Assembly (NCBI GenBank): GCA_029567325.1
Contig: JAKQLF010000122.1
Span: 1 to 64,000, forward strand
DNA length: 64,000 bases
Source: Bacteroidota bacterium
GTDB taxonomy: Bacteria; Bacteroidota; Bacteroidia; Chitinophagales; Saprospiraceae
Direction: 5' to 3'
The notes below the pieces were generated by a model. It saw nothing but the letters and a program-made list of their open reading frames with translations, was not told the origin of the DNA and made no database searches. A program made the translations under genes and the position numbers. Within the stretch, counting starts at the first letter, position 1. Each line of letters starts with the position of its first letter. This document shows positions 9,085-11,872 of the stretch, one piece after another.

Positions 9085-10074
9085 TCAAGATGGTGTAAGA
9101 AAACTGGATTTTACCCATTTGGCCTCCAGACTTACCTTACTCCAGGCATTGCTTTCTTCGAAGATAAACACTTCCTGACCTTTCAAAAAAGAACCAACGA
9201 CCGTGTTTTGTGCACTTGGACCATTTCTTACATTCAGTGTATTTGCATTGACGGTTGCTCTTTTGACTTCATCCGTGTATCTGCTGTAAACCCAATGGTT
9301 TTGTGAGTTGGAGATTTTATACCAATTATTTTCAACTTGGTACACTCTAAGGACAGAACCTTGCTGAGCTGGTGTCCTATCATCAGCCTTAGCAAAACCT
9401 GAACCGGGACCAGTTCTGATGTTTAGAAATTCGGCTGTTACGAATACATACTTGAGAACCATGGCTCCAGGTAATGTCGATAAAATGTTCCTCACCAGCG
9501 GCAAAAAGTTATTTTCACAATCACTGACTTTGTTGCCACCAAAAAAATTGGTTCCCGGACAAGATTTATTACTACTGCCTTCCGATGATATACCATTGTT
9601 TCTTTCGCCAGTGCCCAAATCAAACCAATGATGATATACAATTTTGTGCGTGTTGACTTCAATGGCAAAACGTTTGCAAATTGCTGCGCTAGCCCTTACA
9701 ATAGCGTTTGTTTGCGCTGTTTCCATTTGGTCCTTACCTGTATCAAAATATCCCAAATTTTCAATACAAAATGCGTTGGCATTGTTCCCAAAAATACAAG
9801 CAGGACTATTCTCAAAAGATCGACCGGTCACTATAGCACCGTCTGGAAAAATGGTGATGTGTTGGCCTATGTCAATCCATCCATTGGAATGTACATGGTA
9901 ATTTCTCATGCCTAGTTGCAATTCAAAATGATTATTCCCATCAAAAGAAGAATAGTCTGGGTTGAAAGTATGATGTTGCTGTAAATATAAAATGGTACGT
10001 GCTACTTGCTGATTGGAAATCCAGGTTTCAAATTCAGCGATTGACATTTTAGTAAATCCATATTTGGTGTCCAT
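9085..10074 (-). CDS. N-acetylmuramoyl-L-alanine amidase (amidase_2/PGRP type) with two SH3b domains
   Basis: ILYLQQHHTF...NYHVHSNGWIDIGQHITIFPDGAIVTGR, KIVYHHWFDLGTG, SCPGTNFFGG; SH3b repeats FLNIRTGPGSGF and LNVRNGPSAQNTVVG. Confidence 0.85.
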   Translation of the reverse strand: MDTKYGFTKMSIAEFETWISNQQVARTILYLQQHHTFNPDYSSFDGNNHFELQLGMRNYHVHSNGWIDIGQHITIFPDGAIVTGRSFENSPACIFGNNANAFCIENLGYFDTGKDQMETAQTNAIVRASAAICKRFAIEVNTHKIVYHHWFDLGTGERNNGISSEGSSNKSCPGTNFFGGNKVSDCENNFLPLVRNILSTLPGAMVLKYVFVTAEFLNIRTGPGSGFAKADDRTPAQQGSVLRVYQVENNWYKISNSQNHWVYSRYTDEVKRATVNANTLNVRNGPSAQNTVVGSFLKGQEVFIFEESNAWSKVSLEAKWVKSSFLTPS

Positions 10075-10212
10075 CGTGTGATTTTTTGGTATTGAGAAGA
10101 GATGCTACAAAAATAATAAAACATCAGTGATTTAATAAAGGTAATTCATACACACAAAATGGATTTGGTCTCTTCATCTTTTGCCATTATTTGCAAGAAG
10201 GGTGTAAAACTG

Positions 10213-10736
10213 AAGATCGAACATTTAACATATTCGATCTTTGCAAACCCAACTATGCATTTGATTTATGATTTAACATATTCAATCAGTCGTGCCACAG
10301 CTCCAAAACCGAAGATCGAACATTTAACATATTCGATCTTTGCAAACCCACCCATTCAATTGATTAATGATTTAACATATTCAATCAGTCGTGGCGGAGC
10401 CATGAAACCGAAGATCGAACATTCAACATATTCGATCTTTGCAATCCCACCTAGGCAATTGATTAATGATTTAACATATTCAATCAGTCGTGGTAGAACT
10501 CCAAACCGAAGATCGAACATTTAACATATTCGATCTTTGCAAACAGATCCATACAATTGGTTTATAATTTAAAATCTGCAATTAGTCATGGTAAAGCTCC
10601 AAAACCGAAGATCGAACAATCTACATATTCGATCTTTGCAAACCCATCTAAGCATTTGATTTATGATTTAACATATTCAATCAGTCGTGGTAGAACTCCA
10701 AACCGAAGATCGAACATTTAACATAATCGATCTTTG
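10213..10736. repeat. Tandem array of ~98-99 bp units (6 A hairpins alternating with 5 B hairpins)
   Basis: AAGATCGAA-N11-TTCGATCTT begins at 10213, 10312, 10411, 10509, 10608 and 10706; alternating related GATTwATGATTTAACATATTCAATC units near 10263, 10362, 10461, 10559 (degenerate) and 10658. Confidence 0.95.
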
Positions 10737-10753
10737 CCGTAGAAATAACTTTT

Positions 10754-11872
10754 CTATTCTTTCCTTACATCAAATACATCCCGCAAACCCGTACCAAGCA
10801 AATTAAAACAAAGAACGAGTATGGAAACAACCAAAGCAGGTGCCAAGGCTAAAGTATAATATCCACTCAATGCATATCCATAATTTTCATTGAGCATGTT
10901 TCCCAAGGATGGTGTCGGAGGATTGATGCCAAAGCCTAGATAACTCAGTCCAGCTTCAACCAAAATAGCCGTGGCAAAGTTTGCTGCGGTGACCACTAAT
11001 ATAGGCCCCATGATATTGGGAAGTATGTGTTTAAAAAGAATGAGATGGCTTTTTTGTCCCAAACTTTTGGCAGCTTGTACATACAGCTGATTTTTGACCT
11101 CCATAACTTGTCCTCTTACAATCCTTGCAACATCAACCCACATGGTGAGTCCAATAGCGAAAAAGATGATGCCCATTCCCCTGCCCAAGGCAAGAACAAT
11201 TGCAAAAACCAATAACAAGGTAGGAATTGCCCAAACGACGTTGATGAAATACAATAAAACCTGGTCGATCCAACCTCCATAATAACCTCCAGCAGCCCCA
11301 AGTGTGACACCTACAAACAGAGAAACAATCACCGCCAATAATCCAACTAATAAAGAAACTCTTATCCCCAAAATAAGACGACTCAAAACTGAGCGCCCAT
11401 ATTTATCTGTACCCAACAAAAATGTTTGAACAGTGGTGAGCTTGTCTGTTATGTATTTGGCCTTCTCTTCAACTGATAAACTCAACTTTTCTTCTGAAAG
11501 TATTTGGTCATAAGTGATAAATTTTTGCTTTCCTGCATAAAACAAAGAAACGTCATTGGCGGCACAGTGAAGGGAATCAAAAGCCAATTGTCGATAGTTT
11601 CTTGGGAAGCCAAAGATCATCCCACTTACAAAACCAGTTTTACTTTCATTGCTGGTTTTTACTTTCAATAATTTGATATCAGACATTGGTTTTCTAAGGG
11701 CAATCTCTGGAATTTGATTATTGGCATTCGGACTATCGTCAGCTATGACCAAGTAGGCTGACAATGATAGTAATGTCATAATCAATATGACCACACAACT
11801 ATAGAAGGCGACTCGATTGCTTCGCAGTCCTTTGAAGAACAAGGCTATCGGCGACTCTATTGCGTGGTCCAA
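10754..11872 (-). CDS. ABC transporter permease, OppC/DppC family
   Basis: LGTDKYGRSVLSRLILGIRVSLLVGL, YVQAAKSLGQKSHLILFKHILPNIMGPILV, EAGLSYLGFGINPPTPSLGNML. Confidence 0.92.
   Translation of the reverse strand: MDHAIESPIALFFKGLRSNRVAFYSCVVILIMTLLSLSAYLVIADDSPNANNQIPEIALRKPMSDIKLLKVKTSNESKTGFVSGMIFGFPRNYRQLAFDSLHCAANDVSLFYAGKQKFITYDQILSEEKLSLSVEEKAKYITDKLTTVQTFLLGTDKYGRSVLSRLILGIRVSLLVGLLAVIVSLFVGVTLGAAGGYYGGWIDQVLLYFINVVWAIPTLLLVFAIVLALGRGMGIIFFAIGLTMWVDVARIVRGQVMEVKNQLYVQAAKSLGQKSHLILFKHILPNIMGPILVVTAANFATAILVEAGLSYLGFGINPPTPSLGNMLNENYGYALSGYYTLALAPALVVSILVLCFNLLGTGLRDVFDVRKE

Follow-up and report, generated by a model that had tools for sequence, protein, structure and literature searches.

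Between an amidase gene and an ABC permease gene of a Saprospiraceae bacterium (Bacteroidota) lies a regular tandem array of short palindromes, and the question raised by this locus is what the repeated motif is for, if it is for anything. Clusters of palindromic repeats are commonly regarded either as junk or as REP elements mobilised by a RAYT transposase. The array was analysed in its window, i.e. the whole stretch of 64,000 nucleotides from contig JAKQLF010000122.1 (C234 below), in the remainder of the host genome (G000, a fragmented draft assembly of 5.8 Mb in 402 contigs, 97% complete) and in other genomes of the family.

The array in the window

An initial annotation had described the locus as eleven hairpins at 10213–10736, with six A units alternating with five related B units. 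We reproduced its coordinates and spacings, the match of A to B at 20 of 25 positions, and the stem counts: five A copies have an intact stem (9/9) and the sixth has 8/9. The array could be extended slightly on both sides (Table 1). The A units are AAGATCGAA-N11-TTCGATCTT palindromes (n = 6) starting at 10213, 10312, 10411, 10509, 10608 and 10706 (spacing 99, 99, 98, 99 and 98 bp), interleaved with the five B units at 48 bp from A to B and 50–51 bp from B to A, and Tandem Repeats Finder scored the array at 763–810. The count of eleven hairpins stood in part: the six A units fold well (RNA folding of the window-type A unit, −10.9 kcal/mol, z about −4.9), but a B unit of the array does not (−3.5 kcal/mol, z −0.5) and the B unit at 10557 is decayed, so the array is better described as six hairpins with five related units that are partly decayed.

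Table 1. Array units and flanking genes, in window coordinates
Feature	Position	Strand	Remarks
N-acetylmuramoyl-L-alanine amidase (Amidase_2) with SH3 domains	9085..10074	-	Pfam; start codon 132 bp from array
Whole array, six A and five B units	10206..10737	+	532 bp; orientation set by asymmetric loop
A unit 1, 33-bp core	10211..10243	+	stem 10213-10241; 9/9 stem
B unit 1	10261..10289	+	48 bp after A unit 1
A unit 2, 33-bp core	10310..10342	+	9/9 stem
B unit 2	10360..10388	+	
A unit 3, 33-bp core	10409..10441	+	9/9 stem
B unit 3	10459..10487	+	
A unit 4, 33-bp core	10507..10539	+	9/9 stem
B unit 4, decayed	10557..10585	+	6 mismatches vs B consensus
A unit 5, 33-bp core, loop altered (caatctacata)	10606..10638	+	9/9 stem
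B unit 5	10656..10684	+	
A unit 6, 33-bp core	10704..10736	+	8/9 stem
OppC-type ABC permease	10754..11872	-	Pfam BPD_transp_1; stop codon 17 bp from array

The array lies past the stop codon of the permease gene and upstream of the amidase start, as had been proposed. At the orthologous place of a same-genus genome (G005), the permease gene directly adjoins an SLBB gene and both the array and the amidase gene are absent, so the amidase-plus-array interval (window 9085–10737) was gained or lost as one block.

Since the 99-bp period is divisible by three, a 121-codon open frame on the + strand (10159–10524) crosses the array; it is probably spurious but might be annotated by gene callers. We rejected a coding repeat, as this frame gave no Pfam match and the 50-bp arrays found elsewhere in the genome are not a multiple of three.

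A family of arrays at twelve intergenic places

Across the host genome, about 75 A and 25 B units were found at 12 places, all of them intergenic (contigs C234, which carries the window array, C303, C241, C108, C180, C323, C231, C363, C278, C242, C150 and C105). These copy numbers are minima, because the draft is fragmented and several arrays lie at contig ends. Since the A pattern gave 59 forward matches genome-wide versus none for the reversed control, and the bare stem pattern 75 versus one in its control, the window array is far beyond chance.

Pure A arrays with a pitch of exactly 50 bp occur at four places (C108, with 16 A units, C180, C231 and C105), in agreement with the earlier suggestion that an ancestral unit of ~50 bp preceded the A–B pair. 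The 99-bp A–B arrays (A–B 48 bp, B–A 50–51 bp) are those of C234, C303, C241 and part of C323, and the combination of A–B 48 bp with B–A 51 bp was found at five places. A second dispersed module is included in some arrays (C278 and C363); in C278 the periods are 156 bp because this module, ATCTGTGGAATTTCTGTGCAAATCTGTGGAATCTGTGAGC, sits between A and B. A dispersed module AATTTCTGTGCAAATCCGTGTAATCTGTGAGC was also seen interleaved with A and B units (L065 on C278, 1–1369) and alone in tandem (L064, 7447–7619). Apart from the A/B family, an unrelated second tandem family with a conserved ~42-bp core, ATTTACCTTCTAAAAATCATTTGTGCATTGTGGGAAGGCACA, a less conserved linker and a period of 98–113 bp lies on C323 (L062, 15198–15997).

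The genes around the 12 places are unrelated to one another; judged from sequence, the array neighbours presumably include GatB, a serine dehydratase, SusD, a peptidase and HemL. A stop codon lies 1–70 bp before the start of several arrays. Within each place all units are direct and in one orientation, none being head-to-head, and the orientation of the arrays relative to neighbouring genes is mixed. Array orientation agreed with replication skew, a relation seen in SBW25, in the only three contigs with a clear skew signal (C234, C303 and C363), and the other contigs gave noise, so any such relation here is at most tentative.

Constancy of the core and drift of the linker

The unit consists of a conserved 33-bp core, (T/C)(G/A)AAGATCGAA-xATxxAACAxA-TTCGATCTTTG, followed by a weakly conserved linker of ~17 bp, and recurs at a pitch of 50 bp, or of 99 bp where the B variant alternates. 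Over 75 A units, the core was near maximum information, loop included (~2 bits per position), the only free positions being loop sites 10, 13, 14 and 19 and, partly, stem site 6, while linker positions carried 0.01–0.7 bits. The initial annotation had read a varying loop on an intact stem as constraint on the stem. This holds inside the window array. Across the family of 75 A units, however, the stem is no better conserved than the loop core A-T-x-x-A-A-C-A-x-A, and in B units the left arm decays while the loop and right arm are retained; constraint specific to the stem was thus not upheld. Constraint on the motif itself was confirmed in the pure A arrays, where cores differ by 3–13% (divergence 0.03–0.13) and linkers by 38–55% (0.38–0.55), a difference of 4- to 14-fold (p ≤ 5e-5 by column shuffling for every one of the four arrays). 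Because essentially every pitch slot is occupied by a core, this contrast does not come from ascertainment only. The length of the linker is kept and its sequence is not; linkers are nevertheless related to one another within and between places, suggesting that copying involved core and linker together and was followed by drift of the linkers.

Neutral tandem repeats drift along their entire unit. In these arrays core and linker did not diverge alike, the core being conserved and the linkers far more diverged, and a plain minisatellite is therefore not what they are. A functionless family expanding by slippage would accord with the absence of the motif from all relatives tested and with the richness of the genus in other intergenic tandem repeats, but the contrast between core and linker recurs at several places and in two species, and we regard such a neutral origin as very improbable.

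Between A and B, three stem pairs are altered on both sides in step; overall, 90.9% of cells pair, versus 82.5% in shuffles, and cells with a double change number 61 versus 21.6. Much of this double change is a single A–B divergence inherited by many copies, and the left arm of B is less well kept, so a maintained hairpin is not proven by the paired changes. Hairpins acting in transcripts, for example in 3′-end stability, termination or as a small RNA, would fit these compensatory changes, the good folding of the A cores (z −4.1 to −4.9) and the folding of the whole array, which is far better than that of shuffles on both strands (z −5.9 and −8.1). However, any dyad yields such scores on both strands, and the ratio of G–U to A–C mismatches, 36 versus 18 cells, shrinks to 16 versus 12 when counted by place and settles no strand. 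The mixed orientation toward neighbouring genes, the window B units that do not fold and the weak or shuffle-like folding of the sister-species cores described below also count against a role in RNA, and the Rfam search gave nothing above its gathering score (best, IS605-orfB-II with 28.9 bits vs 88). On balance a function as RNA seems rather improbable.

The layout (29–33 bp repeat, ~17–21 bp spacer) superficially resembles CRISPR, and cas1 genes are present in the host genome. CRISPR was excluded as the linkers are mutually related, both within and between places, and the repeat beside cas1 is a different one, GTTTCAATTCCAATATGGTACGATTAAAAG, at a pitch of 64–68 bp. The twelve dispersed places have no adjoining cas genes, and we found neither unrelated spacers between near-identical repeats nor a repeat in common with the cas locus; the chance that the arrays are CRISPR or CRISPR-like is negligible. 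The genome's own CRISPR array beside cas1 (L278 on C65, 1–899) has a 30-bp repeat.

Sister species and the nature of the motif

None of five same-genus genomes contains the A/B motif, and of 297 other genomes of the family 292 lack it, four others having single chance-like matches. A covariance model run over 298 family genomes returned four weak matches (E 0.002–0.01), single and outside arrays, which were taken as chance. BLASTN against phage and plasmid records found no A/B motif, and the two matches in viral contigs were both unrelated. An exact-stem scan of 84,980 GTDB genomes gave 37 matches, mostly in Acinetobacter and many resembling terminators, with loops all different and none with the A loop. 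Judging from these searches, the family is private to the host genome among the genomes covered.

Two same-genus genomes have families of their own. G005 carries 129 matches of TAGTAAATGTGACATATACGTCAC at ~20 places, with a constant 26-bp core and a pitch that varies by array (45, 46, 47, 58, 65, 75, 104 bp and more), and its linkers diverge more than its cores in all 11 arrays measured (~1.4-fold to 8-fold). The G005 core comprises an operator-like dyad, GTGACATATACGTCAC, and a conserved one-sided AGTAAAT; it folds weakly (z −1.0), and some copies are single, with long flanks common to other places. G004 carries a private 42–43-bp family on at least 6 contigs, whose core is not clearly palindromic and folds no better than shuffles; 21 of its units stand in one array (L166/L230 on its contig C37), and others on C6, C8, C23, C44 and C50. 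Neither motif was found in the other genomes tested. The sister species thus share the layout, each with an unrelated private motif. About 0.2 Mb of G003 held no comparable array, and in the out-of-genus sample, G010, the sole comparable array was a real CRISPR. In a CRISPR array of G010 (L268 on its contig C6, 1870–3577; 36-bp repeat), one and the same 23–24-bp insertion, CCGCCGCAGGCAGCTGCGCAGCA, lies within each of the final four regular repeats, with the spacers continuing as usual. Absence from all close relatives, which the initial annotation had named as a mark of a neutral minisatellite, is thus true of the motif sequence and untrue of the kind of element.

Its defining features set the A/B family apart from tagged REPs, dRS3 and CRISPR; the closest known systems are the tandem REP arrays of Pseudomonas fluorescens SBW25, the neisserial NIME/dRS3 arrays, F-plasmid sopC and the tagged REPs. 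The initial annotation had named no family with such a layout; close precedents do exist in SBW25 and Neisseria (PMC3116915, PMC3898611). The A/B family itself was not described in a literature search that covered few subscription journals. In SBW25, two REP types (GI/GIII) alternate in tandem at fixed spacings of 112/72 bp, and arrays of GI alone, with even spacing, also occur (PMC3116915). Two related palindromes alternating directly at fixed spacing at several places, single-type arrays and privacy to one genome are common to both, whereas here the spacing is 48/50–51 bp, there is no GTAG tag, no cognate Y1 transposase adjoins the motif and inverted pairs or singles hardly occur. The neisserial intergenic mosaic elements combine dRS3 (ATTCCC-N8-GGGAAT), a target of filamentous-phage integrase, with RS linkers (PMC3898611). 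They too have a constant short palindrome, variable repeat-family linkers and intergenic arrays at many places, and the second dispersed module of C278 and C363 adds to the likeness; but the A core does not have the dRS3 sequence, the layout alone being common, and the A/B family differs in its fixed pitch and privacy to one species. The F-plasmid centromere sopC/parS-F consists of a 43-bp unit repeated twelve times in tandem; ParB-F/SopB binds its 16-bp inverted repeats, and the array acts by multivalent protein binding (PMC6238139). With it the A/B family shares tandem direct units of similar pitch with a dyad in each, a likeness of layout only, as twelve chromosomal places stand against one plasmid site and the motifs are unrelated as far as they could be compared. 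GTAG and CGTC REPs are defined by a tetranucleotide at one stem foot (PMC3733652); like the A units they are short, species-restricted, intergenic palindromes, but A feet (T/C-G/A and TTTG) carry no such tag, the A loop is 11 long versus 4–5 in CGTC REPs, and A units stand in direct tandem rather than in head-to-head dimers.

The main rival to the reading we favour is that the motif is a mobile palindrome, REP-like in its working rather than a typical REP, with a core that would serve a transposase or recombinase as its recognition hairpin or site and with arrays that arise as by-products of copying; the enzyme could be resident, could act in trans or could have been lost. It would explain both privacy and dispersal; the family is species-private, 20–40 bp long, palindromic, present in many intergenic copies and often 1–70 bp from a stop codon, direct arrays with alternating types and even spacing are known for REPs in SBW25 (PMC3116915), and the single G005 copies with long common flanks also fit. 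Against it, besides the missing tag and the absence of any head-to-head pair, nearly all copies in the host genome stand in arrays, while REPs are mostly single or paired, and the motif was not found at Y1 transposase genes, whereas a GTAG-type REP is expected to flank its cognate RAYT gene. Six Y1 places of the host genome, searched with 1.5-kb flanks in an assembly that is incomplete and may lack the gene, held no A core, those with clear palindromes carrying other ones, and the Y1 loci of G005 and G004 held neither of their own private motifs. We regard a mobile palindrome as possible, if doubtful. As a separate observation, two Y1-type transposase genes of the host genome (L108 on C339 and L110 on C115) are flanked by palindromes of their own, TTGCCTCC-N10-GGAGGCAA and CCCCGATC-N11-GATCGGGG, like ordinary RAYT/REP pairs.

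Our leading explanation, held tentatively and at somewhat less than an even chance, is that the core is a sequence-specific recognition site, most likely for a putative DNA-binding protein, which was spread and amplified in units of core plus linker. A protein is favoured because loop and stem are equally fixed in A units and because the G005 core, an operator-like dyad with a one-sided extension, folds weakly, which fits a hairpin less well than a site for a protein on double-stranded DNA. The protein would be held at several neighbouring sites simultaneously, as in iterons, parS/sopC and operator arrays. Units may have been copied among intergenic places, with tandem duplication then enlarging the arrays; the linkers would later drift with length alone kept, and selection for binding would keep the cores constant. 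Both the site and, presumably, its partner would turn over fast, giving each related species its own motif in the same layout. Some observations count against a protein array: with a pitch of 50 bp, or 4.76 helical turns, in the host genome and varying pitches in G005, no phasing rule holds; a hairpin would explain the paired A/B stem changes too; and a copying or recombining enzyme, rather than selection on function, could cause the constancy of the core. The reading first proposed, namely a multi-site binding array, a structured RNA or a nucleoid/chromosome-organisation element, was partly borne out. A more far-reaching version of the protein reading, which we consider fairly unlikely, is that the species of this genus each keep a private multivalent DNA-binding array system, with a fast-changing protein and its own 26–33 bp site replaced together; the arrays, at 10–20 chromosomal places, would then represent chromosome-organising or regulatory elements of a new kind.

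In these arrays constraint is legible from one genome, in that cores are held, linkers are free and length is kept. If a protein binds the cores, it would be turning over rapidly from one sister species to the next, an unusual and directly testable example of joint change in a site and the protein that reads it.
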